NCBI RefSeq assembly: GCF_001563285.1
Contig: NZ_CP005189.1
Coordinates: 1 to 64,000, forward strand
Direction: 5' to 3'
Origin: Sphingobium sp. MI1205
Lineage (GTDB): Bacteria; Pseudomonadota; Alphaproteobacteria; Sphingomonadales; Sphingomonadaceae
Length of the DNA stretch: 64,000 nt
Shown: piece by piece, positions 27,448 to 47,008 of the stretch
Layout of the letters: the number at the start of each line of letters is the position of its first letter
Numbering within the stretch: the stretch's first letter is position 1
Notes under the pieces: generated by a model
Seen by the model: only the letters and a program-made list of their open reading frames with translations
Databases searched by the model: none
What the model was told of the DNA's origin: nothing
Made by a program: the position numbers and the translations under genes

Positions 27448-28836
27448 ATGAGGGGCGTAAGGGGCGACAGGTTGAGCAGGCGGGCGGCTGGCGTGATGCT
27501 GGCGGCGGCGATGCTGTTCGCGCTGCTGCTGGGCGGCGTGGGCGGCAGCCGGCTGCGCGCGGCGGATGCGCCCGGCGGGCGGGCGTTCGTCGGCGTTGCT
27601 TCCTGCGCGGGTTCCACCTGCCATGGGCGGATGGAGGGCGATGGCAAGGTCGTGCGCCAGGACGAGTTGATGCGCTGGCAGGAGCCTTCGACCCCCGGCG
27701 GCGCGCATAGCCGGGCCTTTGCGGTGCTGTCCGGCACGCGGAGCAGGCAGATTGCGGCGACGCTGGGGCTGGGCGATCCGACGGCAGCGCCCGCATGCCT
27801 GGGATGTCACTCAACCCCCGCCGTCGCGCGGGGCGCACGGTTCCTGGCGCAGGATGGCGTGGGGTGCGAGGCGTGCCACGGGCCTGCGGGCGGATGGATT
27901 GCGAGCCATTATGCGGTGGGGGCGAGCCATGCGGGCAATGTCGCGGCGGGCATGATCCCGCTCGACCGGCCACAGGCGCGGGCTTCGGTGTGCCTGGATT
28001 GCCATTTCGGCAGCGACCGGCCCGGCCAGTTCGTCGATCATCGCATCATGGCGGCGGGTCATCCGCGCATTTCGTTCGAGCTGGACCTGTTTTCGTCGAT
28101 GCAGGCGCATCATGACGAGGATGCCGACTATGCGCGGCGCAAGGGGCGGACCGACAGCCTGAAAGTTTGGGCGGTGGGTCAGGCGATGGCGGTGGAACGC
28201 GCGCTGACGCTTTATGCGGGCGCGAAGGGGACGGAAGGGGCTTTCCCGGAATTCTATTTCTTCGACTGCCAAAGCTGCCATCGGCGCATCTATGATCAGG
28301 CGGAGCGGACCAAGACGTGGGAGGCCAATCCGGGGCGGCCGATCCCGGCGGGCATGCCGCCGTTCAATGACGAAAATATGATCCTGCTGTCCGCCGCCGC
28401 GCGGGTCGCCGCGCCGGAGCTGGCGGGGCGGTTCGATGCGGACAGCCGCGCTTTCCACGCGGCGATTGCGACTGATCGGCGGGCGGCGGTGGCGGCGGCG
28501 GGCAAGCTGGCGGCGAGCGCACGGGCGCTGGGCGACGCCTTTGCCAGCGGCGGCATGAAGGGCGACATGGCGTTCGCCATCGTGCGCGAGATTGCGGGCG
28601 GGGCGATTGCCCCACGCTTCACCGATTATGAAGGGTCCGTGCAGGCGGTGATGGCCATCGACACGCTGCTCAACAGCATGGTGAAGTCGGGCCAGGTAAC
28701 GGTGGGCGCGGCGGCGGGCATCCGCGCTGATGTCAACCGCGCCTATGCGGCGGTCAAGGAACCCAATAGCTATCAGCCCGCCATGTTCAGGAGCGCGCTG
28801 GGCAATGCCGCGCGCAGCATCGGAGCATTGCGGTGA
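27448..28836 (+). CDS. Pentahaem cytochrome c554-like protein
   Basis: A 462-residue exported cytochrome. After a signal segment (AAAMLFALLLGGVGG) come one CX4CH motif (CAGSTCH, 53-59) and four CXXCH motifs (CLGCH, CEACH, CLDCH, CQSCH). This gives five likely c-type haems in the first 280 residues. The arrangement resembles cytochrome c554-type multihaem proteins. The C-terminal 170 residues are helical, Ala-rich and free of haem motifs. The ATG at 27448 has AAGGGGG five bases before it; the upstream tpsA stop is 74 bases away. It overlaps the next gene by the four-base GTGA. Likely a periplasmic electron carrier in the redox system proposed here. Confidence 0.85.
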   Translation: MRGVRGDRLSRRAAGVMLAAAMLFALLLGGVGGSRLRAADAPGGRAFVGVASCAGSTCHGRMEGDGKVVRQDELMRWQEPSTPGGAHSRAFAVLSGTRSRQIAATLGLGDPTAAPACLGCHSTPAVARGARFLAQDGVGCEACHGPAGGWIASHYAVGASHAGNVAAGMIPLDRPQARASVCLDCHFGSDRPGQFVDHRIMAAGHPRISFELDLFSSMQAHHDEDADYARRKGRTDSLKVWAVGQAMAVERALTLYAGAKGTEGAFPEFYFFDCQSCHRRIYDQAERTKTWEANPGRPIPAGMPPFNDENMILLSAAARVAAPELAGRFDADSRAFHAAIATDRRAAVAAAGKLAASARALGDAFASGGMKGDMAFAIVREIAGGAIAPRFTDYEGSVQAVMAIDTLLNSMVKSGQVTVGAAAGIRADVNRAYAAVKEPNSYQPAMFRSALGNAARSIGALR

Positions 28837-30809
28837 GCGGCGCGCGGCACAGGTTGAGCGCGCTGGTTGCGGCGTCGGCGCTGATCCTGTCGTCCTGCGG
28901 CGGTGGCGGGAGTGACGGCGGGAGCGGGGGCAGCCCCACGCCTGCGCCGACGCCTACGCCCACGCCTGCGCGGCTCTATGCCGATCCGGCGCAGGAGGCG
29001 CTGACCGTCGCCGATGTGGAAAATGTCGTCGGCCATGCGGTCGCCGAAGCGCAGGCGCGCAGCCTGCCCGCCGTCATTGCCGTCACCGACCGGGTGGGCA
29101 ATGTGCTGGCCGTGTTCCGCATGAACGGCGCGCGGGCGAGCGCCACGACCAGCGCTGCGCCCAATGGCCAGAATATCGACGCGCAGAACCTGACCGTCCC
29201 GGCGGAGGCTGGCGCGATTTCAAAGGCGATTACCGGCGCCTATCTGTCGAGCGGGGGCAACGCCTTTTCCACGCGCACGGCGAGCATGATCGTGCAGGAG
29301 CATTTCCCGCCCGCGCCGGGCACGGTGGGCCTTGAAAGCGGGCCGCTGTTCGGCGTGCAGTTCAGCCAGTTGCCCTGTTCGGACCTGTCGGCGCGCTTCA
29401 TGTCGTCGGGCGCCCAGGCGATGATCGGGCCGAAACGGTCGCCGCTGGGGCTGGCGGCTGATCCGGGGGGCTTTCCGCTCTACAAGAATGGCGTGGTCGT
29501 AGGCGGCGTCGGCGTGATGGCGGACGGCGTCTATGGGTCCGATCCCGATGTCACCGACACGGATAATGACCCGGAAGAATATATCGCGCTCGCCGGGACG
29601 CTGGGCTTTGAAGCGCCCGACACTATCCGCGCCAATCACATCTTCGTGGACGGCACATCGCTGCGCTATTCGGATGCGGCCTATGCGGGATTGATGGCGA
29701 GCGGGGCGGTGAGCTTTGCCGCGATCAATGGCAGCGCCGGGGCGCTGGTGGCGGTGCGCGGCTATTATGGCGAACCCGCGCCGATGGTGCTGGCGGGCGT
29801 GGCGTATGGGACCGAGGCGTCGGGCGTGCGCCAGTCGCGGGTCGGGGAATTTGCCAATCGCGACGCATTCGTGCTGACGGACGGGTCGGGGGCGAACCGC
29901 TTTCCCATTCGGGCGGCGACCGATGCGGGCGATGTGGCGCAGCCGCTGACCGCCGCCGAAGTAACGGCGGTGCTGGAGGAAGCCTTTGCCATCATGAGCC
30001 GGGCGCGGGCGCAGATCCGGCAACCGCTGGACAGCAGGGCGCAGGTGACGATCAGCGTCGTGGATACGCGCGGGGCGGCGCTGGGCATCGTGCGGTCGCC
30101 CGATGCGCCGATCTTTGGCACGGACGTCAGCTTGCAGAAGGCGCGGACTGCGGCCTTCTTTTCCAGCGGCCATGCCGCGCCGGACCTGCTGGCGAGCAGC
30201 AGCGCGGATGTGGCGGCGTTCGTGGGCAAGGCGCGGACTTTCCTGAATGACTCCGATGCACTGACGGGGACGCATGCCTTTACCGACCGGGCGAACGGCC
30301 TGCTGTCGCGGCCCTATTTCCCCGATGGTGAGGTGGGCCGTCCGAACGGGCCATTCTCCCGCCCCATCGCGCAGTTCAATCCCTTTTCCACCGGATTGCA
30401 GTCGGCGCTGGTGGTGGGCGATCTGGCCGCGCATCTGGCCTTTGTGACCGGGGCGAGCGCCAGCGACACGCCGCAGCGTTGTTCGGCTCTGGCCGGGGTG
30501 GGCGCGGGCAACCGCATCCAGAACGGCGTTCAGATTTTCCCCGGTTCGGTCCCCATCTATCGCGGCAATGCGCTGGTGGGCGCGATCGGCGTGTCGGGCG
30601 ACGGCATCGATCAGGATGACATGATCAGCTTCCTTGGCGCGCATAATGGCGGCCAGCGCGGCGGCGGCATCGGCAATGCGCCTGTTGCGATCCGGGCGGA
30701 CCAGATCGTCGTGGATCTGGGGAGTAAGGCCGTGCGGCTGCGCTATGTCAGCTGCCCCTTTGCGCCGTTCCTCGACAGTTCGTCCCAGAATGTGTGTCAG
30801 GGGCTGTAG
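28833..30809 (+). CDS. Tandem GlcG/HbpS (DUF336) haem-binding-type lipoprotein
   Basis: A 658-residue lipoprotein starting at GTG 28833, overlapping the cytochrome gene. The lipobox LILSSC puts the lipidated Cys at residue 22, followed by a Gly/Ser and Pro/Thr linker (TPAPTPTPTP). Two GlcG/HbpS-like units follow, one at about 55-330 (ITVADVENVVGHAVAEAQ-like helix, VAVTDRVGNVLAVFRMNGA, YKNGVVVGGVGVMADG) and one at about 370-640 (VTISVVDTRGAALGIVRSPD, YRGNALVGAIGVSGDG). HbpS proteins bind haem and respond to redox stress, while GlcG-type proteins are often just associated with oxidoreductases. Location among multihaem cytochromes favours a haem- or redox-related role at the outer membrane or cell surface. 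Confidence 0.75.
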   Translation: MSGARHRLSALVAASALILSSCGGGGSDGGSGGSPTPAPTPTPTPARLYADPAQEALTVADVENVVGHAVAEAQARSLPAVIAVTDRVGNVLAVFRMNGARASATTSAAPNGQNIDAQNLTVPAEAGAISKAITGAYLSSGGNAFSTRTASMIVQEHFPPAPGTVGLESGPLFGVQFSQLPCSDLSARFMSSGAQAMIGPKRSPLGLAADPGGFPLYKNGVVVGGVGVMADGVYGSDPDVTDTDNDPEEYIALAGTLGFEAPDTIRANHIFVDGTSLRYSDAAYAGLMASGAVSFAAINGSAGALVAVRGYYGEPAPMVLAGVAYGTEASGVRQSRVGEFANRDAFVLTDGSGANRFPIRAATDAGDVAQPLTAAEVTAVLEEAFAIMSRARAQIRQPLDSRAQVTISVVDTRGAALGIVRSPDAPIFGTDVSLQKARTAAFFSSGHAAPDLLASSSADVAAFVGKARTFLNDSDALTGTHAFTDRANGLLSRPYFPDGEVGRPNGPFSRPIAQFNPFSTGLQSALVVGDLAAHLAFVTGASASDTPQRCSALAGVGAGNRIQNGVQIFPGSVPIYRGNALVGAIGVSGDGIDQDDMISFLGAHNGGQRGGGIGNAPVAIRADQIVVDLGSKAVRLRYVSCPFAPFLDSSSQNVCQGL

Positions 30810-30811
30810 CG

Positions 30812-32650
30812 ATGGGGATCGCCGCTTTCCTGCCGCTTTTTGCGCTGGCGCAGCCTGGAGAGCCTGTGCCGCCGCCTCCGCCCGACAATTGGGAGGAGAT
30901 ATTGAACGCGCCGGAAGTTGGCGCGGACGAGCAGTTGATCGATGGCCGCCGCCGTCCCGGTTATGAAGCGCCGCTGCCGGATGCGGTGACACAGGACAAT
31001 CCGGGCGCGGTGCGTGCGCCGCCGCCAGAGGCCTTTCCGGTCGATCAGGTGCCGATCCCCGACCGCTGGCGGCTGATTGAATCGCTGGGCGTGGTGAAGG
31101 AACGCTGGTTCGACCCCTATAACCAGAACACGCTGAAGGGCGACCGGCCGATCAACCGCGACAAGGTGAAGTGGTTGCCGATCAAGGGCGACGACTGGTT
31201 CTTCGTCGCCAATGCGGTGAGCGACACGGTGATCGAGCCGCGCACCTTTCCCATCCCCGTGGGCGTGCAGACGACCGAGCGGCCCGGCAGCATCGATGTG
31301 TTCGGCAAGGATGCCAGCTATGTGCTGAGCCAGACCTTCATCGGCGGTTTTGCGCTGATCAAGGGATCGACCGCGTTCAAGCCGCCGGACATCGAATATC
31401 GGCTGACGCTGGCCTATAATATCAATCATGTGAATGTGCCCGAACGGCGCGTGCTGTTCGTCGAGCCGTCCCGGCCGTCGCGCCGCACCGACCATTTTCT
31501 GGGCGTGCAGGAATTGTTCGTCGACTATCATCTGGCGAACACATCGGATCGCTATGACTTCCGGTCGATCCGCGTGGGGGTACAGCCATTTCAGTCGGAT
31601 TTTCGCGGCTTCCTGTTCAACGACCAGCAGCTGGGCATCCGCCTGTTCGGCAATCGCGACAATAACCGGTTCCAGTTCAACCTCGCGGCTTTCTGGCGGC
31701 TGGAGAAGGACACGAACAGCGGCCTTAATTCGGTGGTGCAGACGCCGCGTCGGGACTGGGTGTTTCTGGCGAACCTGTATCGGCAGGATTTCCTGATTCC
31801 GGGCCTGACCAGCCAGATTACCGCCGTCTATAATATGAACCGCGAGGCCGGGCGGATCGAGGTTGACGATAACGGCTTTCCGGTGCGGCCCGCACTGCTG
31901 GGCGACCTGCGCGGGCGGGATTATGATGTCGTGTATCTGGGCTACAATGCCGATGGGCGGGTCGGGCGGCTCAACCTGACGGCGTCGGCCTATGGCGCGC
32001 TGGGGGAGGACAGGAACAGCTTCTTCACATCCGAGCCTGCGCAGATCAGGGCTTTCTTCGCGGCGGCGGAAGCGAGCATCGACAAGGATTGGGTGCGGTT
32101 CCGGCTGTCGGGGCTGTATGCAAGCGGCGATGGCGATCCTTATGACGATCGCGAGACCGGGTTCGATGCGATCTTTGAAAATCCGGTCTTTGCCGGTGCG
32201 GACACAAGCTACTGGATCAGGCAGACCATCCCTTTTGCGGGCGGTGGGCGCGCGATCGGCATCAATGGCCGCAACGGCATATTGAATTCGCTGCGCTCGT
32301 CGAAGGAGCAGGGGCAGTCGAACTTCAACAATCCGGGCACCATGCTGCTGGGCGCGGGCGCGGATTTCGATGTGCTGCCCGAATTGCGGCTTTCGGCCAA
32401 CGCCAACCATCTGTGGTTTGAAAATACCGCCACCTTGCAGGCGCTGCGCAACGAAGGGAGCATTCCCAAGTCGATCGGATGGGATCTGTCCACCGCCGCG
32501 ATCTGGCGGCCGCATGCTACGCAGAATATCGTGTTCCGCCTGTCGGGCGCGACGCTGCTGCCGGGCGCGGGCTTTCGCGACCTTTTCACCAATAGCGAGC
32601 GCAACCGGAACTATTATTCCGTGCTCGGCAATTTGATTTTGAGTTATTGA
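30812..32650 (+). CDS. Outer-membrane beta-barrel protein of the cytochrome cluster
   Basis: A 612-residue exported protein, or 618 residues if the GTG at 30794 is used. It has a hydrophobic leader (IAAFLPLFALAQ), a Pro-rich segment, then from about residue 110 alternating amphipathic strands typical of a large barrel (YRLTLAYNINHVN, DFRSIRVGVQPF, LRLSANANHLWFE) and ends with the Tyr-final signal NLILSY. I do not see CXXCH motifs. It starts two bases after the lipoprotein stop and overlaps the decahaem gene by one base. By position it could be the porin sheath of a porin-cytochrome conduit, as MtrB is to MtrA, but similarity to MtrB is not evident by eye. Confidence 0.65.
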   Translation: MGIAAFLPLFALAQPGEPVPPPPPDNWEEILNAPEVGADEQLIDGRRRPGYEAPLPDAVTQDNPGAVRAPPPEAFPVDQVPIPDRWRLIESLGVVKERWFDPYNQNTLKGDRPINRDKVKWLPIKGDDWFFVANAVSDTVIEPRTFPIPVGVQTTERPGSIDVFGKDASYVLSQTFIGGFALIKGSTAFKPPDIEYRLTLAYNINHVNVPERRVLFVEPSRPSRRTDHFLGVQELFVDYHLANTSDRYDFRSIRVGVQPFQSDFRGFLFNDQQLGIRLFGNRDNNRFQFNLAAFWRLEKDTNSGLNSVVQTPRRDWVFLANLYRQDFLIPGLTSQITAVYNMNREAGRIEVDDNGFPVRPALLGDLRGRDYDVVYLGYNADGRVGRLNLTASAYGALGEDRNSFFTSEPAQIRAFFAAAEASIDKDWVRFRLSGLYASGDGDPYDDRETGFDAIFENPVFAGADTSYWIRQTIPFAGGGRAIGINGRNGILNSLRSSKEQGQSNFNNPGTMLLGAGADFDVLPELRLSANANHLWFENTATLQALRNEGSIPKSIGWDLSTAAIWRPHATQNIVFRLSGATLLPGAGFRDLFTNSERNRNYYSVLGNLILSY

Positions 32651-35600
32651 TGCGCCCGCTTTTCGCCTTTCTGTTGCTGATCCTTGCCGCTTTGACCGTG
32701 CCGGTGGTCATCCTGCACGCGTCGGACGCGGAAAAGCCGGTCGAGCGCGTCTATGCGGTGACGCCCCCCGCGCCGATGAGCCAGACGGCGGAACAGGTCG
32801 CGGCGAAATCGGACGGTTGCTACAGCTGCCATACCAAGACGGACGAGCCGTCCATGCATGCGACCCCGGCGGTCATGCTGGGCTGCGTCGATTGCCATGG
32901 CGGCGATGCGGCGGTGCGCGGCGATCCTTCCCATGGTTTCGACGATCCGGCCTATGTCGCGGCGCGGGACAAGGCGCATGTGCTGCCTCGCTATCCCGAA
33001 AGCTGGCATTATCCTTCGTCCGCCAACCCCAAGCGGACCTACACGCTGCTGAACCGGGAAGCGCCGGAGTTCGTGCGCTTCGTCAACCCCAGCGACTATC
33101 GCGTGGCGCGCGAGGCGTGCGGATCATGCCATATGCAGACGATCGAGGCGGCGGAACGGTCGCTGATGGCGTCGGGCGCGATGCTGTGGGGCGGGGCGGC
33201 CTATAATAATGGCGTCGTGCCGTACAAGAATTACATATTCGGCGAGGCCTATACCCGCGATGGCAAGCCCGCGAAGATCGTGTCGCCCGGATCGCCCCCC
33301 GGTACGCTGACTGCGGAGCAGAAGGCGCGCGGGGCGCTGGCGGAACTCTATCCGCTGCCCAACTGGCAGGTGACGCCGCCGGGCGACGTGTTCCGCGTGT
33401 TCGAGCGCGGCGGGCGCAATATCGCGACGCAGTTCCCGGAAATCGGCCTGCCCAACCCGACCGGGTCGATCCAGCGGCTGGAGGAGCCGGGGCGCCCTGA
33501 CCTCAAGCAATCCAGTCGCGGGCCGGGCACGGGCCTGCGCGTGGCGATCCCGGTGCTGAACCTGCACAAGACGCGGCTCAACGACCCCTATATGTGGTTC
33601 ATGGGGACCAATGATCAGCCGGGCGATTATCGCCATTCGGGCTGTTCGGGGTGCCATGTCGTCTATGCCAACGACCGCGAGCCGCGCCACAGCCTGACCT
33701 ATGCGCCCTATGGCCGCGACGGGCAGAGCGCGACGGTGGACCCGACCATCGCGTCCAAGGTGCAGCATGAGGATAGCGACCACGGCGCGTTGAAGGGCGC
33801 GCATGGGAAGGAGGTCAAGCCGGATCATCCGATCGGCGCGGTCAAGGAAAGCGGGCACCCGATCCGCCATGCGTTCACCCGCGCCATCCCGACCGCGCAG
33901 TGCATGAATTGCCACATGCATCAGCCGAACATCTTCCTGAACAGCTATCTTGGCTACACCATGTGGGACTATGAGTCCGACGCAGGCCTGATGTGGCCGG
34001 AAAAGCAGAAATATCCGACCGCCGCGCAAACGCACCAGACGCTGGAGCGCAATCCCGAAGGGGCAGCGCCGAAGGGCAACTGGTCGGACCTGGACTTCCT
34101 GCGCAACGTCTATGACCTGAACGACAAGGCGAAGGATACGCAGTTCGCCGACTATCACGGCCATGGCTGGAACTTTCGTGGCGTGTTCAAGCGCGACCGG
34201 GAAGGCAATCTGCTCGACGCCGATGGCAAGATCGTCGCGAATGACGACCCGGAGAAATGGCGGAAGAAGGGCGAGGACAAGTTCGTGCCCGTGGGCGTCA
34301 ACCCCGGCAAGAGCGTCCATATGATGGACATTCATGCCGAAAAGGGCCTGCAATGCGCCGATTGTCACTTCGCGCAGGACAGTCATGGTAATGGCTTCAT
34401 CTATGGCGAGGTGGCGAACGCCATCGAGATCGGGTGCAAGGATTGCCACGGGACGGCGGACGCCTATCCGACGCTGCTGACGTCCGGCCCCGCCGCGCCG
34501 CCCAAGGGCAACAATCTGGCGCTGCTGCGCAACCCGGATGGCAAGCGGCGGTTCGAATGGTTTTATGACGCGAGCGGGCGGCGCAAGCTGATCCAGCGGT
34601 CCATCGTTGATCCGAAGCTGGAATGGGAAGTGTCGCTGGTCAAGGATGCGGTGGACGCGACCAGCCCGCATTTCAATGCGAAGGCGGCGCGCGCCAAGCT
34701 GATGAGCCGGTCGGGCGCGGAGGATGGCAGTTTCTCCTTTGGCCCCGGCGTCGCGAAGGAAGACCGGGCGCATAATGACGAGAATATGGCCTGCTTCACC
34801 TGTCACCTGAGCTGGACGACGAGTTGCGGCGGTTGCCACCTGCCGATCGAGGCGAACTGGAAAACGTCGCTGCACCATTATGAGGGCGAGGAGACGCGCA
34901 ACTTCGCCACCTATAACCCGCAGGTCGCGCGGGACGAGATGTTCCAGCTGGGCAAGCACCAGACGACCAAGGGCAATATCTATGCCCCGGTGCGATCGAC
35001 GTCGGCGCTGGTGCTGTCGTCCACCAACATCAACCGCGAGCGCATCTATATCCAGCAGCCGCCGGTGTCGGGCATCGGCTTTTCAAGCCAGGCGTTCGCG
35101 CCGCATTTCCCGCATACGGTGCGCAAGACAGAGACGAAAACCTGTTCCGATTGCCACCTGTCGGAGAAGGACGACAATAATGCGATCATGTCGCAATTGC
35201 TGTTGCTGGGCACGAACTTCGTCAACTTCGTCGGGCTGAACGCCTGGACGGGACTTGAAGGCGGGTTCGAAGCGATCCGCGTCACCGAATGGGATGAACC
35301 GCAGGCGGTGATCGGCAGCTATCTGCAGAAATATGCCTATCCCGATTATTGGAAGCTGCATGTCGATCAGAACAAGCGCGAATTGAAGAATTGGGTTCGC
35401 GGCAAATATTTCGACAAGAAAGGCTCTGGCGAGAGCCGGGCGATCGAGGAATTCCGCAATGTCGTGAAGGGCACGGCTGGCCGTGTCGGATGCCTGCAAC
35501 TGCGCGGCGAATATATGTATGTGGCCGAAGGAAAGGGCGGCTTCCGCGTCTATGACGTCGCGTCCATCGGCAACAAGGGCTTTTCCGAACCGATATTGAG

Positions 35601-36639: not shown

Positions 36640-36774
36640 GGGGGGGATAGCCGTGCCCCGCGTGTGACCTGACCATTTCGGCCATGGTTGCGCTCTACAG
36701 AGCATGAGCACATGGTCGCTTGCCTTAGTCGGGCATGATGCTATCTTACCTGCGTCTTACCAATGGAGCAGGCC

Positions 36775-37047
36775 ATGGGCGTTCATGACCGGATTACGAC
36801 CACCGTATCGACCAAGGGGCAGGTTATCTTGCCCAAGTCGATCCGGGACCAGCTTCATTGGGAAGCCGGTACGAAGCTGATCGTCGAGGAAACCGCCGAG
36901 GGCGTTCTGCTAAAGCCCATGCCGATCTTCGCGCCGACCGATGTTGACGCGGTTTTCGGTTCGCTCCGGCCGAGCGGGCCTGCTCTGTCGGTCGATGAGA
37001 TGAATGCTGTCATCGATCGGGAAGCGACGCGGCGTGCGCGGGATTGA
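36775..37047 (+). CDS. vapB: VapB-type antitoxin (AbrB/SpoVT fold)
   Basis: A 90-residue protein with an N-terminal swapped-hairpin AbrB domain (TTVSTKGQVILPKSIRDQL) and a C-terminal tail that would wrap the toxin. It would neutralise the PIN-domain nuclease encoded next and repress the shared promoter. I chose ATG 36775 because GGAG lies about six bases before it; an upstream ATG at 36763 would add four residues. The following gene starts 14 bases before its stop. Confidence 0.85.
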   Translation: MGVHDRITTTVSTKGQVILPKSIRDQLHWEAGTKLIVEETAEGVLLKPMPIFAPTDVDAVFGSLRPSGPALSVDEMNAVIDREATRRARD

Positions 37048-37423
37048 CACCAACATTGTCGTCAGATTGCTGACCGCCGACGATCCGAAACAGGCTCAGG
37101 CGGCGCGGCGGGTCGTGGAAGGCGGTGACATTTTTATTCCGATCACGGTCATGCTGGAAACCGAATGGGTGCTTCGCGCGGGCTATGGGTTTCAGGCCTC
37201 GCACATCGCTGCCGCAATCCGTGGCGTTGCAGGCTTGCCCGGCGTCTCGGTCGAGCAACCGGCCCGGCTGGCGTCTGCGCTGGAGTGGATGGAGGACGGC
37301 ATGGATTTTGCCGATGCCCTTCATCTGGCGGGTGCGGGGCATTGCAGCGTGTTTCTGACATTCGACCGTAAGTTTGCCAAACGCGCGTCGAAACCCGGCG
37401 TGATTCCGGTCGCTCTTCCCTGA
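37034..37423 (+). CDS. vapC: VapC-type toxin (PIN-domain ribonuclease)
   Basis: A 129-residue PIN-domain endoribonuclease, starting at GTG 37034 within the antitoxin gene. The acidic catalytic residues are visible: Asp in GIDTNIVVRLL, Glu in LETEWVLR, Asp in DFADALHL and Asp in LTFDRKF. VapC toxins cut tRNA or rRNA and stop translation when the antitoxin decays. An alternative ATG at 37004 would add ten residues. The pair stabilises replicons and may explain retention of this region. Confidence 0.85.
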   Translation: MRGIDTNIVVRLLTADDPKQAQAARRVVEGGDIFIPITVMLETEWVLRAGYGFQASHIAAAIRGVAGLPGVSVEQPARLASALEWMEDGMDFADALHLAGAGHCSVFLTFDRKFAKRASKPGVIPVALP

Positions 37424-37427
37424 CCGA

Positions 37428-38276
37428 CTATTCCGGCCGTTCGGCCATCAACATCTGCACCAGCGGCTGCATGCCCGCATCGAACTTCGCCAGCGTTGCG
37501 GGTTCGCCCGCCGTTTCGAAATGGGTGACGAGGCCAGCGTCCGTCCAGCGGTGGAGGGCATAGGCGGGGGCGTCGGCGATTATCATGGGGCGGTTGTCAG
37601 GGGCTTCCGGGTCCATCGGGCGCAGGTCGAGGGCGAGTTGCGGCGCGGTGGAGGAGCAGATGGCGACGGTCGTGCCCTTCCACGGCGCGGTGATCGTGCG
37701 GTGGAGGTGGCCGCAGACGAGCGCGGTGATGTTGGGGCGGTTTGCTATGGTGGCGCTGAAACGCTGGACCCATGGTTCGTCGGGATGGGTGTTCATCCAG
37801 TCGATGCCGACTTCGACCGGGGGGTGGTGCATGACGATGAGGGTGGGGGTGTCGGCATCCTCATCGAGCCGGGCGGTCAGCCACGCTGCGCGGGCTTCGC
37901 AGAAGGCGCCGCCGTGGCGGCCGGGTTCCAGCGTGTCGAGTACGATGATGCGGCGGCCCGGCAGCGGGACGACATAGTGAACGAAGCCGCCTTCCTGCGG
38001 CACATGCGGGAAGTGCGCGGCGAAATTGGCGCGGTCGTCGTGATTGCCCATGGCGGGCCAGACCGGGAAGGGGCATTGCGCGAAGGCTTCCGCCAGGGCG
38101 CGATAGCTGTCGCCGTCGCCATGGTCGGTAATGTCGCCGGTCGCGAGCAACAGGTCGGGGCGGTTGGGACCGTCGATCAGGGCGCGCAGCACCTGGTCGA
38201 GCCGCTGGCGGTTCAGCTCCCCGGGGTTGCCGGGGTCGAAACCCAGATGAATGTCCGTGACCTGTGCGATCAGCAT
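37428..38276 (-). CDS. CpdA-like cyclic-nucleotide phosphodiesterase (metallophosphoesterase)
   Basis: A 282-residue calcineurin-fold phosphodiesterase. The metal-binding set is complete: TDIHLG (residues 8-13), ATGDITDHG, MGNHDD, MHHPPVE and GHLHR. This pattern and length match the class III 3',5'-cAMP phosphodiesterase CpdA, although substrate cannot be read from the motifs alone. The ATG at 38276 has GAAGGGGAG upstream; the frame is open further back, but that part is not family-like. It ends five bases from the vapC stop and follows the FHA-cytochrome gene by about 20 bases, so it is likely the last gene of the minus-strand redox operon. A phosphodiesterase beside cNMP-binding domains supports a cyclic-nucleotide link. 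Confidence 0.8.
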   Translation of the reverse strand: MLIAQVTDIHLGFDPGNPGELNRQRLDQVLRALIDGPNRPDLLLATGDITDHGDGDSYRALAEAFAQCPFPVWPAMGNHDDRANFAAHFPHVPQEGGFVHYVVPLPGRRIIVLDTLEPGRHGGAFCEARAAWLTARLDEDADTPTLIVMHHPPVEVGIDWMNTHPDEPWVQRFSATIANRPNITALVCGHLHRTITAPWKGTTVAICSSTAPQLALDLRPMDPEAPDNRPMIIADAPAYALHRWTDAGLVTHFETAGEPATLAKFDAGMQPLVQMLMAERPE

Positions 38277-38295
38277 CCCGTTGCGCTCCCCTTCT

Positions 38296-40107
38296 TCACC
38301 CGTCGCGGCCGATGCGTCGTGGCCGGTCCGCCTGGTCTTTTCTGACTGCGCGATCGGCGGGCGTCCATGGCGCGCCGTCGCCGATATGATAGCTGTGACA
38401 CATGGTGCAGCCGGAGGGCACGTCGGCCTTTGACTGCTGGCCGCCATGGCAGGTGCGGCAACTGTCGATGCCGGGCAACAACAGCTGGCGCGCGTCGTGC
38501 GACTTTGGCGCGGCGTGGCAGCTTTCGCAGGTTTCGGTGGCGTGGGCCTTATGATCGAACCAGCCGTTCATCATGTAGCGCATCGATTGTTTCACCGGCG
38601 TCACCTGCCAGCGCGTGCCATCGTTCGTGACCGTGTGGCAATCATAGCAGGCGCCGCCCTTGGAAAAGACGGCGCGGATGGCGTCGTCGGCGCGGGAGGG
38701 GCGGGCGGCGGCGGCGCCGAAATAGGCGTGGTACATGCGGCCCTGCGCATAGTCGCCGGGGCGGCGGCGGGCCATGCCGCCAAGCGCGATCGGCTGGGCC
38801 GGGCCGGTCGAGCGGTAATAGGCGCGCAGGTCCGCGATCACCTGTTCGGGCTGGCCGTGGCGCAGCGTGCGGACGGTGCCGCCGATCGTTTCGAAGGCGA
38901 GGCTGTGGCAGGACTGGCAGTCGCGCTCCATATCGACGGGCAGGAAGCGCACGCCGTCGGCGGTAGGGCGGTGGCAATCCTTGCAGGCGAGCGCGTCGCC
39001 ATAGCCGTTCTGCGCCTTCAACGTGCGCGCCATGCGGGCGACGCCGCCGGTCTTTGACAGGTGGACGTCGTGCGGGAATTTGAGGCCGCTGTCGTCCTTC
39101 GGCCTGGCGTCGAGGGAGGCGCGGGTGAAGCTGGGCTGCTTGCCGGGGTTATACTGGACGAGCGCGGAAAATTGCGGGTGCGCAGTGCCGAAGTCGCTGG
39201 CGTCGGCGAGCTTCGTGTCCTTCAGCCGATCCTTGAGCGTGCCGTGGCAATCGGTGCAGAAGGCCTGTGGCGTGGGCTGCATAGGCCCTGCGCCTTCATG
39301 TTCGCTATGGCAATCGACGCACGCGCCCTGCGGCGGCTTGCCAAAGGTCGTGGCGACGAGGTTCAGGAACTGGCCGCCCATGCCCGGTTCCGCGCGCGCC
39401 ATGGCGATGCGGGCAGCGGGGGCGTGGTCGTGGACCGATGTGTGGCAGGTCTGGCAGGCGGTGTCGCGGACGGAGACGAACGCCTTTTCATGGCATGTCT
39501 CGCACTTGCCCTCCAGCGCGTGATGCGCCTGGCTGAGCGGACCGGAGGACCATGCCCCATCCCCCTTCACGCTGTAGATGTTGCGCGTGTCGGTGGCGGG
39601 GCGGCTGGCGTAGCTGTAGATCGGGATGGCGAGGAAGCCGATGAGGATCGCGAGCGCGAGGCCCCAGGCGGTCAGGCGCTTGCCGGGAAGATAGCCGCGC
39701 AGGGAAAAGACCTTTGCCTCCTCCTTTTCCTCGGACGCGTCCGACACGGCATCGACGCGGCGGATGGTGAGGATGGCAGCGCCATCATCGTCGCGCGACA
39801 CGGTGAGGCGGTGGCCGCCCAAGCGCAGTTCCGCGCCCTTGGCGATGTCGATTTCCGCGTCGCGCGTGGTGCGGCCTTCAAGGTCGAAGCCGAGCGTGCC
39901 CGTGGCGCGGACGCGGATGGTGCGGTCGTCGATCCGCTCGATGCGGGCGTGGTCCGGCTCCAGCGCGAGGTCGGGCAGATGGATGTCATTTTCCGACGCG
40001 CGGCCCAGCGAGAGCTGCGGCTTGGCCAGCGTGGCGGAGCGGACGATCTCGCGGCCATCTGCGGTCAGGCTGATCTGGCGGACTTGGAAGCTCATGGTCG
40101 CGCTCAC
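38296..40107 (-). CDS. FHA domain-transmembrane-decahaem cytochrome c fusion
   Basis: A 603-residue bitopic protein. Residues about 5-125 form a cytoplasmic FHA domain (LSLGRASENDIHLPD, then DHARIERI), which normally binds phosphothreonine peptides. One membrane helix follows at about 148-168 (WGLALAILIGFLAIPIYSY). The periplasmic part has ten CXXCH motifs: CETCH, CQTCH, CVDCH, CTDCH, CKDCH, CQSCH, CYDCH, CESCH, CRTCH and CTMCH. The gene starts at GTG 40107 in a GTGA overlap with the membrane-protein stop; ATG 40095 is an alternative. It would take electrons from the membrane protein and pass them to periplasmic carriers, perhaps gated by phosphorylation. That a signalling FHA module and a decahaem chain share one chain is directly seen; the gating idea is inference. 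Confidence 0.85.
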   Translation of the reverse strand: MSATMSFQVRQISLTADGREIVRSATLAKPQLSLGRASENDIHLPDLALEPDHARIERIDDRTIRVRATGTLGFDLEGRTTRDAEIDIAKGAELRLGGHRLTVSRDDDGAAILTIRRVDAVSDASEEKEEAKVFSLRGYLPGKRLTAWGLALAILIGFLAIPIYSYASRPATDTRNIYSVKGDGAWSSGPLSQAHHALEGKCETCHEKAFVSVRDTACQTCHTSVHDHAPAARIAMARAEPGMGGQFLNLVATTFGKPPQGACVDCHSEHEGAGPMQPTPQAFCTDCHGTLKDRLKDTKLADASDFGTAHPQFSALVQYNPGKQPSFTRASLDARPKDDSGLKFPHDVHLSKTGGVARMARTLKAQNGYGDALACKDCHRPTADGVRFLPVDMERDCQSCHSLAFETIGGTVRTLRHGQPEQVIADLRAYYRSTGPAQPIALGGMARRRPGDYAQGRMYHAYFGAAAARPSRADDAIRAVFSKGGACYDCHTVTNDGTRWQVTPVKQSMRYMMNGWFDHKAHATETCESCHAAPKSHDARQLLLPGIDSCRTCHGGQQSKADVPSGCTMCHSYHIGDGAPWTPADRAVRKDQADRPRRIGRDG

Positions 40108-40994
40108 CAGTAGAAAAAGACGCTGACGATATGCGCGGTCAGCGCGGCCAGCAGGGCGAAGGTGGCGGGCACATGGATGTAGAGCCAGATTTCCAGCAGC
40201 GCCTTGAGCTTCAGGTGACGGCGAAGCCGGGCGAGCATGGCCTGCTTGCGCTCAAGCAGGGCATCGACCTTTTCCAGCGGCTGGTTTCCGGTGTCGGGAT
40301 GGTCGGCGGTCCAGTGCCGCAGGCCGGCCTGCGCGCGGGCGGTGGCGCAGCGCGGGTAGCGGCCCGATAGCCTGGCGAGCAGGCCGCCGCCGAAGGGATC
40401 ATCCTCCAGCGACTGGCGCACCAGCGCGGCCTGATCGTGGGGCAGGGGCTGGGCGGTGTCATGCAACTGGCGGTCAATGGCGCGGATGGCTTCGAGCATT
40501 TGCACCTGCGTCATTTCCGCGCGGTTGTTGCTGAGCGCGGTGGGGAGCGTCGCATAGACGATGATGCCGAACAGGCCCGAAAGAATGACCAGCATCATCA
40601 GCGCATAGGCGAGCGTGTGGACGTTCCAGCCCAACTGGAAGCCGGTATGCAGCGTGCCGATGACGATCAGGCTGAGGCCCAGATAGACATGGGCGCTGGT
40701 CCAGGCTTTCAGCGACCAGCGGCCGCGCGTCATGGCCCGTTTTCGCAGGCCCAGCAGGGTAAGCCAGAGGATGAGCGCGACGCCGATCGTGCCCATGACA
40801 TAGCCATACCAGCTGCCGCCATTGTGGCGCGGCGTGACGTCGATCAACAGATAGCTGGCGATGGAGATAAGGCAGATGATCGTCGCGATCTTGAGCCAGC
40901 GGAAATTTGCGTGGCGCAGGAAGCCGTCATGCAGCACCTCGCCCTTGGCGCGGCGGGGCTGGGCAGCAGCGCGGCCAGATGCTCGGGTCGCCAT
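40104..40994 (-). CDS. Polytopic cytochrome b-like membrane protein
   Basis: A 296-residue integral membrane protein with about five helices: IATIICLISIASYLLID, YGYVMGTIGVALILWLTLL, AHVYLGLSLIVIGTLH, LAYALMMLVILSGLFGIIVYA, and a C-terminal IHVPATFALLAALTAHIVSVF. His residues lie on the helices in pairs (SAHVYLGL with GTLHTG, LYIHVP with LTAHIV), a layout fitting one or two b-type haems. A cytoplasmic loop at about 155-255 carries charged helices. It starts in a TGATG overlap with the FAD/Fe-S fusion gene and overlaps the FHA-cytochrome gene, so it is probably the membrane link between the two. The b-haem assignment is inference from His placement. Confidence 0.65.
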   Translation of the reverse strand: MATRASGRAAAQPRRAKGEVLHDGFLRHANFRWLKIATIICLISIASYLLIDVTPRHNGGSWYGYVMGTIGVALILWLTLLGLRKRAMTRGRWSLKAWTSAHVYLGLSLIVIGTLHTGFQLGWNVHTLAYALMMLVILSGLFGIIVYATLPTALSNNRAEMTQVQMLEAIRAIDRQLHDTAQPLPHDQAALVRQSLEDDPFGGGLLARLSGRYPRCATARAQAGLRHWTADHPDTGNQPLEKVDALLERKQAMLARLRRHLKLKALLEIWLYIHVPATFALLAALTAHIVSVFFYW

Positions 40995-43519
40995 CAATTC
41001 GCCTCCCGATCGAGGCGGGCGACAGTCAGGAAATCTTCGGGCGACACGCGGATCGCCGCGCCGGTGGGGCAGGCGCGCACGCAGGCGGGGCCGCCGTCAA
41101 TGCCGGAACACATGTCGCACTTGATCGCCTTTTTCGGCTTTTCAACGCCGGGCTTGGCGTTTTTGTAGCTCCATTTCTTCGATGGCTCGCCGGGGCCGGG
41201 GCCTGCGCCAAAGAACATCCAGTTCAGGAGGCTCGGCTTTTTCGGCGGCACGCTGTCCATGCGGATCACGCCATAGGGGCAGTTGCGCTGGCAATTGCCG
41301 CAGCCGATGCAGGTTTCGTCGATGAAGACTTCGCCATCCGGGCCGCGATGGATGGCGTTGGGCGGGCAGTCGGCCATGCAGTGCGGATGTTCGCAATGGC
41401 GGCAGCTGGTCGGCACATGGAGGTGCGCGTAGGTGCGCCCGGCTTCCCGGTCGAGGCGGGACAGTCCTTCATGACTGTCGGCGCACGCCTTTTCGCAATT
41501 GTCGCAGCCCACACACAGATGCTCGTCGATCAGGAGAACGTCGGTCGCTTCGCCGATGCCGTTGTCGACCAGGAACTTGGCCGTTTCGCTATACATATCG
41601 ACGACGGTGGAGAAGCTGTCCTTGCGGCTTTCGATGAAGGCGTTGACGTCCTGCCGCGCGGCCATGTCGCGGCGGGCGCGTTCGAGCAAGGCGGGTTTGG
41701 CGGCCATCAGGCGCGCGAAGGCGCCGCCGTTCAGCTTGATGACTTCGGACTTGACCGTCGCCTTGACCGTGGCGGTGCGCGGGCCGCCTGCGATCAGCGC
41801 CATTTCGCCGACATAGGAACCGGCGGGGAGGTAGGAAAGAAAGACGTTTTTGCCGCCGATCTTCTTTTCCACGATCATGGAGCCGACGCGGATGACATAG
41901 ATGTCGGTGCCAAGGTCGCCTTCGTTCAGGATCGCTTCGCCAGCCTTCACCGTCTTGATTTCGGCGCTGTCGAGCACTTCGGCGAGGTCGGCCGGGGTCA
42001 GCCCTGAACCGAACATCTGGAGCAGTTGCCGCTCGGTCGAGATGCGGGTGATGGCGCGCTTGGCCGGCGGGTTGGACGACATGAGCTTCAATGCCGCGGT
42101 GCGCGACACTTCCACCATGATCGAGTCCGTGCCCGCGCGCACGGTCGAGCCACGGCGGCGGCCGGAGATGAGGCCGACTTCGCCGAAGATGGACCCGGCG
42201 TCGATGGACACGTTGGTTTCCGGGGCGACCTCCACCAGCGCCTGCCCCTGCGCGATGCCGAACAGGGAGGAGCCGGAGTCATGCTTTTCGAAGATGACGT
42301 CCCCGGCGCGATAGGCGCGCACTTCGCTGTCCAGCATGAATTCGCGCATCTGGAGCGGGGAGAGGCCCTCCAATATGGAGACGTTGGTGCGCAGGAATTC
42401 CAGCCACTCGGCGACGTCGCGCTTTTCCGGCAGGGCGGCGAATTTGGCGGCCAGGATGGGTTCGTCGGCGGGCTTCAGGTCGCGATTGCCGTTGATATAT
42501 TCAACGACGTCATAGCCCTGGTTCATGCAATGCTTGATGAGCGGATAGCCCGCCAGCGCGCCGATGACGAAGATGCCGGGCGCGGTGCTTTCGAACACGG
42601 GCGAGAGCTTCGGGAAGGCGAGGCGGTCGTTGCTGGTAAATTCGATGCCGCAGCCTTCGACGAAGCCGCGCGGCGGGGCGGACCCCATGCGCGCGATGAT
42701 GCGGTCGCATTTCATCTTTACCTCGCCATCGCGGCTGTCGAGCGTGATGAAGCCCGGCTCGATCTTTGCCGTGGTGCTTTCGGTCATGATGTTGAGGCGA
42801 CCGGCTTCGGCGGCGGCCATCAGCCCCTTGACGTTGGCGGGCTTGGCGCTGGCGAACTCGGTGGAGCGGTTGAGGATGGTGACGACATTGCCCTGCGCCT
42901 CGTCCGCCGCAAGACCCATGGCGTTTTCGATGCCCGCGTCACCGGTGCCGACGACGAAGATATGTTCGTCATTATATTCGGCCGGGTCGTCCAGCTGATA
43001 CTGGACATGGGGCAAGTCCCCGCCGGGCACGCGCATCAGGTTGGGATTGCCCTGCGTGCCGATCGCCATAATGACGGCGTCGGCGATAATCTCGCGCCCA
43101 TCGGTCAGGGTGAGGCGGTAGGGCGGGGCGAGACGCTGGATTTCCTTGGTGTCGGTGGTCCCGTCGCGCTTGCGCTCGACGATCTTCTGGATGCTGCCGG
43201 GAATGGGATCGCCGGTGCCGGTGATCGCCTTCACCTCTGCATTATAGGCGACGGCGATGCCTTGCGCGGCGGCCTGCTCGTTCCAGCGACCCAGGATCGC
43301 TTCGCGCTTGCCAGCGTCGAAATCGAAATCGGAACGGAGCACGAGCTGGCTGGGCGTCGCCATCACATGCTTGCCCTTTTGATATTTGAAGATCGTGTCG
43401 GACAGATGGTCCGTCTTTTCGATCAGCAAATGGGGAATGCCAAGCTGCGCCGCGCGCGCGGCCGCGCTCATCCCCGCCGGTCCCGACCCGACGATCGCGA
43501 TACGCACGCGGTCAGTCAC
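40994..43519 (-). CDS. FAD reductase-double cNMP-binding-ferredoxin fusion protein
   Basis: An 841-residue cytoplasmic protein with three modules. Residues 1-340 are a thioredoxin-reductase/YpdA-like flavoprotein with FAD site GSGPAG (11-16) and a second nucleotide site VVGTGDAG. Residues about 380-620 hold two cNMP-binding domains with phosphate-cassette segments FGEVGLISGRRRGSTV and VGEMALIAGGPRTATV. Residues about 670-841 are a DmsB/NrfC-type ferredoxin with four Cys clusters (CVGCDNCEKAC, CRHCEHPHC, CIGCGNCQRNC, CDMCSG...CVRAC), enough for four [4Fe-4S]. It would move electrons from NAD(P)H through FAD and Fe-S to the membrane protein encoded next, with cyclic nucleotide as a possible allosteric signal. 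There is no CXXC redox disulphide obvious in the flavin domain, so it is not a thioredoxin reductase. Confidence 0.9.
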   Translation of the reverse strand: MTDRVRIAIVGSGPAGMSAAARAAQLGIPHLLIEKTDHLSDTIFKYQKGKHVMATPSQLVLRSDFDFDAGKREAILGRWNEQAAAQGIAVAYNAEVKAITGTGDPIPGSIQKIVERKRDGTTDTKEIQRLAPPYRLTLTDGREIIADAVIMAIGTQGNPNLMRVPGGDLPHVQYQLDDPAEYNDEHIFVVGTGDAGIENAMGLAADEAQGNVVTILNRSTEFASAKPANVKGLMAAAEAGRLNIMTESTTAKIEPGFITLDSRDGEVKMKCDRIIARMGSAPPRGFVEGCGIEFTSNDRLAFPKLSPVFESTAPGIFVIGALAGYPLIKHCMNQGYDVVEYINGNRDLKPADEPILAAKFAALPEKRDVAEWLEFLRTNVSILEGLSPLQMREFMLDSEVRAYRAGDVIFEKHDSGSSLFGIAQGQALVEVAPETNVSIDAGSIFGEVGLISGRRRGSTVRAGTDSIMVEVSRTAALKLMSSNPPAKRAITRISTERQLLQMFGSGLTPADLAEVLDSAEIKTVKAGEAILNEGDLGTDIYVIRVGSMIVEKKIGGKNVFLSYLPAGSYVGEMALIAGGPRTATVKATVKSEVIKLNGGAFARLMAAKPALLERARRDMAARQDVNAFIESRKDSFSTVVDMYSETAKFLVDNGIGEATDVLLIDEHLCVGCDNCEKACADSHEGLSRLDREAGRTYAHLHVPTSCRHCEHPHCMADCPPNAIHRGPDGEVFIDETCIGCGNCQRNCPYGVIRMDSVPPKKPSLLNWMFFGAGPGPGEPSKKWSYKNAKPGVEKPKKAIKCDMCSGIDGGPACVRACPTGAAIRVSPEDFLTVARLDREAN

Positions 43520-43638
43520 TTAACTATCCCCCTCTTGCGAGATCACCCGCAGCCCCGGCCATGCCCCTGCCGTGTAATGGCCTGCGGATCAAGCCTTTGG
43601 GCACTCTATCAATTTCATGAGGCGGCGCTAGAGAGCAG

Positions 43639-44610
43639 ATGGTTATTGATTGGGGGAATGATGTGGCGGCGAAGCTGAGCGTGGGACGGGTTGCGCTGGT
43701 GGGGGCGGCTGCGCTGGCGCTGGTGTCGGTGGGCTATAATGTCTGGCGCGACCGGCCGGAAAAGACGGCGGCATCCGCGCCCTTCGCCCCTGCCGCGCAG
43801 CAGCCGTCCGACCCGGAAGCGGTGATCCGTGGATTGCAGGACCGGGTGGGGTCCAATCCCGATGACGCCGAGGGCTGGCAGATGCTGGGCTGGGCCTATT
43901 TCGAAAACGGACGGCATGCCGATGCGGTGCGGGCCTATCGCCGCGCGGTGAAGCTGGCCCCGGACAATGCGACCTTCTGGTCATCGCTGGGCGAAGCGGT
44001 GGTGATGGCGAGCGAGCGTGATCCGATGCCCAGGGAAGCGGCGGAGGCGTTCGACAAGGCTGTGAAGATCGACCCCAAGGAACCGCGCGCCCGCTATTTC
44101 CAGGCGGTGCGGAAAGATCTGGCGCAGGATCATGAAGGCGCGATCCGCGACTGGCTGGCGCTGCTGGCCGACACGCCTTCCGGCGCGCCGTGGGAAGCGG
44201 ACCTGCGGCGCACGATCGAGCAGGTGGGGAAGATCAACGGCATTGATGTGAAGGGCCGGCTGGCCGCGATAAAGCCCGCCGCGCCGCATCCCGATATGGG
44301 GTCGCCGCTAGGGGGATCGGTGGCGACGGCGGCCATTCCGGGGCCGAGCCGGGAACAGATGCAGGCGGCGGCGCAGCTTCCCAAGGGGCAGCAGGACGCG
44401 ATGATCGAGGGCATGGTGTCGGGATTGGAGGCGAAGCTGAAGGCCGATCCGGCCAATGTCGATGGCTGGATCATGCTGATGCGCAGCCGCATGACGCTGG
44501 GCGAAACGGCGAAGGCGCAGGCGGCGCTGGAGGCGGCACGCAAGGCCAATCCGGGGCAGAGCGCAAGGTTGCGGGATGAGGCGCGGGTGCTGGGGGTGCC
44601 GGGGGTGTGA
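43639..44610 (+). CDS. CcmI/CycH-like TPR protein (cytochrome c maturation)
   Basis: A 323-residue protein with an N-terminal membrane helix (VALVGAAALALVSVGYNVW), then TPR repeats at about 65-170 (DAEGWQMLGWAYFENGRHADAV with AYRRAVKLAPDN) and a C-terminal domain at about 220-320 including GMVSGLEAKLKADP and NVDGWIMLMRSR. This is the layout of the CcmI/CycH C-terminal TPR component that delivers apocytochrome to the haem ligation machinery. No other ccm gene is visible here. It is divergent from the FAD/Fe-S fusion gene with 119 bases between them, so a shared control region at 43520-43638 is plausible. Its presence fits the need to mature about 25 haems. Confidence 0.75.
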   Translation: MVIDWGNDVAAKLSVGRVALVGAAALALVSVGYNVWRDRPEKTAASAPFAPAAQQPSDPEAVIRGLQDRVGSNPDDAEGWQMLGWAYFENGRHADAVRAYRRAVKLAPDNATFWSSLGEAVVMASERDPMPREAAEAFDKAVKIDPKEPRARYFQAVRKDLAQDHEGAIRDWLALLADTPSGAPWEADLRRTIEQVGKINGIDVKGRLAAIKPAAPHPDMGSPLGGSVATAAIPGPSREQMQAAAQLPKGQQDAMIEGMVSGLEAKLKADPANVDGWIMLMRSRMTLGETAKAQAALEAARKANPGQSARLRDEARVLGVPGV

Positions 44611-45123: not shown

Positions 45124-45201
45124 CGGGGGTGGCGGCTCGCCTGAGGATGGAGGCGGAGCAGCTGCACGGAACACCCGCAACCCTCGCCCGTTGCATTGCT
45201 G

Positions 45202-46836: not shown

Positions 46837-47008
46837 ACACCCTAGGCAGATCCCGCCGATCTGGTGACGATTGTCGCTTGGCGGGGCCGGGGAATCGGGC
46901 GGAAGCCTCCGTTCTGGTCCTTGTTCGCGGGTAAATGGCAAGGCGATTGTTCTACGCCTGATGCTTCTTGGGCGCCGTATCCTGCGGCGCGGGGCGGCAT
47001 GTGGGCAG

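Follow-up and report, generated by a model that had tools for sequence, protein, structure and literature searches.

A predicted electron-export gene set with two decahaem cytochromes in Sphingobium and other Pseudomonadota, a variant of the porin-cytochrome kind

The window analysed here, a stretch of 64,000 nucleotides from Sphingobium sp. MI1205 (contig NZ_CP005189.1, positions 1 to 64,000), carries at 27448-44610 a cluster of genes for multihaem c-type cytochromes, an outer-membrane barrel and a putative NAD(P)H-oxidising input protein, which appears to be a variant of the predicted porin-cytochrome kind and whose mechanism we infer from sequence. Our reading, which we consider slightly more probable than its negation, is that the cluster encodes a dedicated, switchable electron-export chain. 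The gene set is real; it occurs more widely and holds together more firmly as a unit than an earlier note on this DNA could tell, and it is less certain at its outer end. Motif counts and domain searches bear out the parts named in that note, namely a protein with FAD and iron-sulfur (FeS) sites, a b-type membrane protein, two decahaem cytochromes, a pentahaem cytochrome and a barrel, and its estimate of about 25 c-type haems agrees with the 5 + 10 + 10 haem motifs counted.

The core genes fall into two modules. Module A, on the forward strand, comprises a cytochrome c554-like pentahaem cytochrome c (c5; 462 residues; 27448..28836) with four CxxCH motifs and one CX4CH, an HbpS-like lipoprotein (658 residues; 28833..30809; PF03928, E 7.6e-23), an outer-membrane barrel of AlgE/OprD-like fold modelled with 18 strands (30794..32650), and a decahaem cytochrome of 1329 residues (32650..36639, with an alternative TTG start at 32647), which has ten CxxCH motifs, an ExtM-type haem domain and a C-terminal LVIVD propeller and is called the LVIVD decahaem below. 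Module B, on the reverse strand, holds a decahaem cytochrome with a forkhead-associated (FHA)-like domain, ten CxxCH motifs and, by reading, one transmembrane helix (the FHA decahaem or FHA10; 38296..40095), an inner-membrane protein (IMP; 40104..40994), which bears the PCC3/PCC4 IMP signature of two WX3HX13H patterns plus SGXXG and is expected to bind two b haems, and the FAD/FeS protein (40994..43519), which joins an FAD/NAD(P) domain, two cyclic-nucleotide-binding (cNMP) domains (PF00027, E 1.8e-29) and four [4Fe-4S]-type sites. Two further genes accompany the modules: one for a class III cyclic-nucleotide phosphodiesterase-like protein, placed by profile scores in the CpdA/SpdA/Rv0805 group (37428..38279, reverse strand), and one for a CcmI/CycH-type TPR protein (43639..44610, forward strand; PF23914), an additional copy associated with the system. 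Domain searches and conservation identify the HbpS-like lipoprotein and the phosphodiesterase as members of the gene set; these two, like the cNMP domains of the FAD/FeS protein, had escaped the earlier note. By motif count, CxxCH is absent from every other called open reading frame (ORF) of more than 100 residues in the window; a genome-wide scan for the CxxCH pattern was uninformative.

Comparison of genomes supports the prediction that both modules act as one functional system. Of 296 Sphingomonadales genomes, 76 have the LVIVD decahaem, G086 by a weak match, and 77 have the FHA decahaem, with weak matches in G145 and G224; with these three genomes dropped before counting, 75 of the 296 have both decahaems at strength and none has a single one at strength. 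The earlier note had staked its proposal on the two operons occurring together, and they do so in 75/75, the genes forming one operon in other Pseudomonadota. The decahaem pair lies within 10 kb on one contig in 41/75 genomes, on opposite strands as in the window except in G059; it is separated by 15 kb to 2.2 Mb on one contig in 15/75 and lies on different contigs in 19/75, some of them drafts. Since the decahaems are apart or on different contigs in 34/75, linkage does not explain their co-occurrence. In the 40 stretches that we fetched, every LVIVD-bearing one (26/26) contains the pentahaem, HbpS-like, barrel and LVIVD genes, with barrel and LVIVD adjacent, and those with the FHA decahaem contain the IMP in 29/29 and the FAD/FeS gene in 28/29, the 29th ending there. 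As an aside, the weakly matching genome G086, which belongs to another family of the order, encodes tandem 11+1- and 10-haem proteins (L136:2350-7463).

The two accompanying genes follow the same distribution. The CcmI gene is found in 75/75 system-positive vs 17/221 negative Sphingomonadales genomes (E 1e-20), which supports a CcmI of the system's own where the earlier note had seen a CcmI-like maturation factor next to the cluster, and the phosphodiesterase gene in 75/75 vs 12/221 (E 1e-40). The position of CcmI was checked in 35 genomes, the 34 with separated modules plus G116: 22 have it no more than 12 kb from module B, 12 have it that close to module A, and one has it near neither. The ccmF gene of the genome, with a weak CcmI-like gene beside it, is on a different contig from the cluster. 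The phosphodiesterase-like protein belongs to the CpdA/SpdA superfamily, scoring 132.8 bits on the SpdA and 80.5 on the CpdA model, below the NCBIfam equivalog cut-offs of 400 and 225, and its closest solved structure is Rv0805 (E 6.9e-24). Outside the Sphingomonadales, we saw it in G544 alone (L130, L244).

The set is also present well outside the sphingomonads. Searching 398 genomes of the phylum for the LVIVD decahaem (a sample different from the 378 searched with the IMP profile) gave 20 matching genomes. The protein is full-length in G653, G544, G645 and eight genomes from the same family as the window, and the match is weak or partial in the other nine. G645 carries the seven core genes in one same-strand array, while G544, of a different order, has the two-module layout with phosphodiesterase and CcmI. 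Named genomes hold at least 579 relatives among at least 595 matched stretches. We took the best 80 of these, ranked against a sequence from G645 and hence biased towards its relatives; totals are lower bounds. None of the 80 records is titled as a sphingomonad, and the titles include Colwellia, Thalassotalea, Haliea, Steroidobacter, Nitrosomonas, Duganella, Woeseiaceae and Rhodospirillaceae. For synteny, hidden Markov models built from the neighbours were applied to the 56 loci with enough flank, the 24 short-flanked ones being left out. Barrel and LVIVD genes were found in 56/56, the FAD/FeS, IMP, FHA decahaem and HbpS-like genes in 54/56 each, the pentahaem gene in 42/56 and CcmI in 5/56; all seven core genes are present in 40 loci and the six other than pentahaem in 52, and those present share one strand in 51. 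From gene order rather than from a tree, we infer that a single ancestral operon (FAD/FeS - IMP - FHA decahaem - HbpS - barrel - LVIVD - pentahaem) may have been split later in sphingomonads. In a further locus (L233:5746-17056, in G445), five core genes stand in order from FAD/FeS to barrel, followed by the contig end. Within the Sphingomonadales, the LVIVD gene is also borne on 13 plasmid records, 12 of them Sphingobium replicons of about 0.9-1.3 Mb (the Sphingobium plasmid records with the system being NZ_CP020539.1 and AP027312-AP027342) and one a 404 kb Sphingopyxis plasmid; no match was obtained among phage records. The system occurs in 2/11 listed genomes of the window's genus in our sample, a patchiness that plasmid carriage may explain, function being left unexplained by it.

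The haem-binding features of the three cytochromes are strongly maintained across the 80 loci. Ten CxxCH motifs are found in 79/80 LVIVD homologues and in 61/67 ORFs scored as FHA decahaem (of the rest, three have 9+1, two are haem-less and one has three), and 4+1 haem motifs in 57/61 pentahaem ORFs; haem numbers so constant among homologues are not due to chance. Histidines outside the haem motifs, counted as conserved when the same in at least 90% of aligned rows, number ten against ten haem motifs in the FHA decahaem (32 sequences) and five against five in the pentahaem (28 sequences), so that every haem of these two proteins can be bis-His ligated. The LVIVD haem region has 15 conserved non-motif histidines for ten haems, five extra (52 sequences). 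The pentahaem family profile matches the c554 structure 1bvb with E 2.5e-4. In each of the 42 loci with a complete set of seven, conservation is highest for the LVIVD decahaem, with median identities of 58.5% for LVIVD, 52.7% for the barrel, 48.5% for HbpS, 42.9% for FAD/FeS, 39.1% for the IMP, 34.7% for the pentahaem and 28.6% for the FHA decahaem, and a haem-motif-free stretch of the LVIVD decahaem, FADYHGHGWNFR, is invariant in 52/52 sequences. We read the LVIVD decahaem as a probable terminal redox protein under strong constraint, supplied with electrons by a wire under weaker constraint. Its high conservation favours a specific acceptor or partner over a wire that is purely generic, and is compatible with a terminal reductase and with a wire alike.

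On these features we propose the following electron path. NAD(P)H, the presumed donor, would reduce the FAD domain of the cytoplasmic protein, whose four [4Fe-4S] sites would hand electrons on to the two-haem-b IMP. The IMP would move them outward, a direction suggested by its haem-ligand pattern, which is that of ferric-reductase/NOX cores: WX3HX13H, described in PMC5566968 as the haem ligands of ferric reductase and NOX, occurs twice in 62/62 IMP homologues longer than 240 residues, and SGxxG in 61/62, both also in the window. The tethered FHA decahaem would then take the electrons into the periplasm, with the pentahaem as its partner, and the LVIVD decahaem would act as the terminal redox protein, probably at the outer membrane, where the AlgE-like barrel and HbpS-like lipoprotein would accompany it. 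The final acceptor would be either extracellular or a soluble compound admitted by the barrel. Flow may be gated by cyclic nucleotide bound to the input protein and, where present, by the neighbouring phosphodiesterase. The full version of this proposal, a cyclic-nucleotide-gated, NAD(P)H-driven trans-envelope export of aerobic Pseudomonadota that ends in a new ExtM-type propeller decahaem oxidoreductase at an AlgE-like barrel, as a bacterial counterpart of NOX-type transmembrane reductases joined to a 25-haem relay, seems to us doubtful as a whole.

Several findings weigh against this picture. Pattern searches found two cNMP motifs in 29/60 input proteins, one in 13 and none in 18, so gating may not be general; additionally, the phosphodiesterase is found in 0/56 eligible loci outside sphingomonads. 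The co-occurrence counts are not independent, because they come from related genomes (24 genera). The position that we take, by the FHA motif, to be the phosphate-binding serine of the FHA-like domain is Ser in only 2/32 FHA decahaems, which weakens the idea of this domain as a phospho-threonine reader. The AlphaFold2 model of the LVIVD haem domain is of low confidence (mean pLDDT 60.9), the propeller part being good. The earlier note's FHA-anchored decahaem stands as a decahaem with an FHA-like domain, whereas its anchor is, by reading, the single transmembrane helix. The note's continuous path from NAD(P)H to the surface is retained as one system with a plausible route via two b haems to a periplasmic decahaem, and loses firmness at the final step outward, where an 18-strand AlgE/OprD-like barrel and an LVIVD protein without lipobox are found.

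The outer components were considered by structure and by signals of location. The barrel model has 18 strands (pLDDT 80.9), and fold comparison places it with AlgE/OprD. An MtrB-type barrel is unsupported by this strand count; MtrB is not among the 50 fold matches listed for the model, which we do not count as evidence. Because the modelled barrel is AlgE-like and not MtrB, passage to the cell surface is no more than a possibility. A loose pattern finds a lipobox-like stretch in 43/64 HbpS-like homologues and in only 5/79 LVIVD homologues. In the window's LVIVD decahaem, reading of the sequence found a signal peptide and no lipobox, so either side of the outer membrane is possible for it. The 50 Foldseek rows listed for the LVIVD model are propeller-type proteins, judging by titles, and neither the LVIVD nor the barrel profile found sequence relatives in the PDB at E 0.1.

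Among known systems, the closest are the predicted PCC4 and PCC3 porin-cytochrome clusters of Fe(II) oxidisers (He et al. 2017, PMC5566968), which likewise combine a porin, three multihaem cytochromes and an IMP with two WX3HX13H patterns plus SGXXG; the IMP of PCC4 is described with five transmembrane helices. As in PCC4 subgroup II there, a pfam13247 FeS gene lies upstream of the IMP gene; in the window, PF13247 matches the FAD/FeS ORF with E 3.2e-11, directly upstream of the IMP gene. The window barrel is likened to the PCC4 porin by description alone, and its cytochromes carry 5, 10 and 10 haems against 4, 5 and 10 in PCC4 (PMC5566968). The IMP profile also finds tetrahaem + FeS + IMP + decahaem clusters (L237, L239, L240, L241) that fit the PCC4 description, a cut stretch with FeS, IMP and part of a multihaem gene (L242), and two clusters that fit the PCC3 description (L238, with 24- and 27-haem ORFs, and L243, with 24-, 11- and 13-haem ORFs); L237-L243 are so called by resemblance to the description in PMC5566968, porins having not been identified in them. 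The FHA decahaem, pentahaem and IMP match parts of these clusters by profile over 159, 151 and 94 columns (E 2.1e-13, 1.8e-13 and 4.3e-11), values to be taken with caution for the two cytochromes because multihaem profiles match partly through CxxCH. The FeS protein of L241, the single one tested, also has cNMP domains. In contrast to PCC4/PCC3, the window set adds the LVIVD decahaem, the HbpS-like lipoprotein and the FHA-like domain, and in sphingomonads and G544 it is arranged as two operons with CcmI and the cNMP phosphodiesterase; its FAD/NAD domain and cNMP-FeS part make up a single protein, while in the PCC4-like clusters L237, L240 and L241 an FNR-type reductase is encoded separately. 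As judged by sequence, kinship with PCC4 lies in the input module, and what distinguishes the variant is its output module (LVIVD, barrel, HbpS). Separately, L235:6850-10206 and L236:3052-6423 encode the FAD/cNMP/FeS-type protein and a two-haem-b membrane protein fused in one ORF of 1118-1123 residues, followed by an FHA decahaem with 9+1 haems; neither stretch contains an LVIVD or barrel gene.

The LVIVD haem domain relates to another system. Aligned by hhalign to ExtM-like proteins, it gives probability 100, E 4.6e-40 and 30% identity over 536 columns, an E-value that calls for the same caution. On the NCBIfam ExtM model, the LVIVD decahaem scores 60.2 bits against a cut-off of 800 and has 10 haems vs 12, while the two ExtM-like relatives tested score 238 and 232 bits. 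The Geobacter extHIJKLMNOPQS cluster (PMC5877670) likewise brings together a porin, a b-type cytochrome and several multihaem cytochromes, with ExtM related to the LVIVD haem domain; it differs in that ExtM has 12 haems and ExtI is predicted with 12 strands, and Pfam matches to rhodanese or Rieske domains were absent from the nine window proteins scanned. ExtM-like 12-haem cytochromes are encoded in other Pseudomonadota (L131:8209-10560, L132:8177-10741, L133:9044-11425, L134:8902-11349), that of L131 with a clear CcmI-like gene nearby.

MtrCAB and MtoAB consist of a decahaem, an outer-membrane barrel and a second decahaem, the MtrB barrel having 26 strands. The window set shares the two decahaems and the barrel. 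The FHA10 profile matches chain A of 6r2q with E 2.2e-7 over part of its length, a chain that we take to be MtrA and that the structure listing names otherwise, and FHA10 scores 37.3 bits (cut-off 30) on the Pfam MtrC/MtrF domain II/IV model, no single stretch being significant. However, the modelled barrel is AlgE-like with 18 strands against 26, FHA10 is tethered to the inner membrane, the LVIVD decahaem of the window has no lipobox and no match to OmcA/MtrC models at 1e-3, and the input is of NAD(P)H type where that of MtrCAB/MtoAB is quinol. In the open-access literature, we found nothing on LVIVD joined with a multihaem cytochrome, on a decahaem with an FHA domain at the outer membrane, or on extracellular electron transfer via multihaem cytochromes in Sphingomonadaceae. 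Erythrobacter belongs to the Sphingomonadales. For an Erythrobacter sp., PMC5566968 already lists a PCC3 cluster as a prediction, which qualifies the earlier remark that sphingomonads are not known for extracellular electron transfer. Cytochrome was brought together with forkhead-associated or cyclic nucleotide-binding terms only by PMC10734462, which tabulates a 10-haem 'forkhead-associated protein' in 27/87 iron-oxidiser genomes. A survey of about 60,000 bacterial assemblies for multihaem clusters, PMC11475568, reported many new families; its main text names no sphingomonads, and the window proteins may be among the families in its supplements, which would count against novelty.

How the chain ends is the point at which explanations divide. 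It may be a true extracellular conduit, in which a cytochrome crosses or plugs the barrel and a surface LVIVD decahaem reduces minerals, humics, electrodes or shuttles; the joint occurrence of IMP, multihaem wire, porin and propeller cytochrome, the kinship with PCC3/PCC4 predictions, the adjoining barrel and LVIVD genes in all sphingomonad LVIVD stretches, the FHA10 match to the MtrC/MtrF model and the isolate name of one carrier metagenome-assembled genome, Biocath, which suggests a biocathode, all speak for it. The AlgE-like model, smaller than the 26-strand barrel of MtrB, the rarity of a lipobox in LVIVD proteins and the mostly aerobic, heterotrophic lifestyle of the named carriers keep us at a tentative view, clearly short of even. 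The barrel may instead admit a single soluble compound, be it an oxyanion such as selenite or tellurite or an organic acceptor, for the LVIVD decahaem to reduce, a terminal reductase modelled on the proposal for the Geobacter ext cluster. The ExtM-related haem domain, the exceptional conservation of the LVIVD decahaem with its invariant stretch and surplus histidines, and a barrel fold that is a substrate-channel fold agree with it, and according to PMC5877670 extI deletion alters selenite/tellurite conversion and leaves Fe(III) reduction unaffected. We regard it as rather unlikely all the same, since the ExtM match is far under its cut-off, no catalytic haem was identified and domain searches match the operon proteins to no named terminal reductase at cut-off.

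Two other explanations were considered. In one, the cluster would serve redox sensing or the reductive acquisition of iron or haem, and the HbpS-like protein would be the haem or iron partner; this would accord with the near-constant presence of the HbpS-like gene (54/56 eligible loci), the ferric-reductase/NOX ligand pattern of the IMP and a TonB-receptor plug gene near the stand-alone input module of L236. We consider it improbable, as the neighbour clusters that recur in at least 5 of the 80 loci, several of them unannotated, include no recognised gene for a siderophore or a TonB receptor. An inward chain of the sort suggested for PCC4, oxidising Fe(II) or Mn(II) outside the cell, could draw on the homology of the modules to PCC4-like clusters and on the forkhead-associated decahaem tabulated for iron oxidisers. 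The input protein, however, has FAD/NAD(P) domains, and nothing in it suggests a site at which uphill NAD reduction could be coupled; Sphingobium is not known to oxidise Fe(II). This reading appears very unlikely.

Neighbouring genes were also considered as parts of the system. A very large Gly-rich protein (21032-27373, forward strand), without Pfam match, resembles a two-partner-secretion exoprotein (TpsA-like), and with a ShlB/FhaC-type transporter (46871-48682, forward strand) it flanks the cluster on both sides. As a system part the exoprotein was rejected, since among the 40 stretches a strong match was found only in G269, beside c5. Weaker TpsA or TpsB matches adjoin modules in G155, G035, G167 and G544; TpsA matches below 80 bits are not displayed in the 40-stretch comparison, which includes G155, G035 and G167. 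A PIN-domain gene between the two operons (37004-37423, forward strand) has no match in the 40 stretches and is no member of the set. At 45196-46702 (forward strand) lies a nucleotidyltransferase-like gene, followed by a second, different metallophosphoesterase. In the 80 loci, a PP2C-type family (three members tested, all PP2C phosphatases) recurs behind the pentahaem gene in 20 and a double-FHA family (three members tested, all double-FHA proteins) in 17, neighbours that hint at Ser/Thr phospho-signalling around the operon; in L149:14919-17062 and L171:15080-16874, a PP2C phosphatase and a double-FHA protein stand directly behind it.

Trans-envelope multihaem relays are usually seen as tools of metal reducers and iron oxidisers. 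Colwellia, Haliea, Steroidobacter, Duganella and Woeseiaceae are chiefly known as aerobic heterotrophs, and it is in records under these names, in sphingomonads and in others that the seven-gene set occurs with near-constant haem numbers. Named isolates, among them Sphingobium herbicidovorans (strain NBRC 16415, with an LVIVD protein 97% identical to that of the window) and Steroidobacter agaridevorans, carry the system, so that it is directly testable. If the electron-export reading is true, such aerobes would use NAD(P)H to send electrons outward, perhaps with a second messenger in control.

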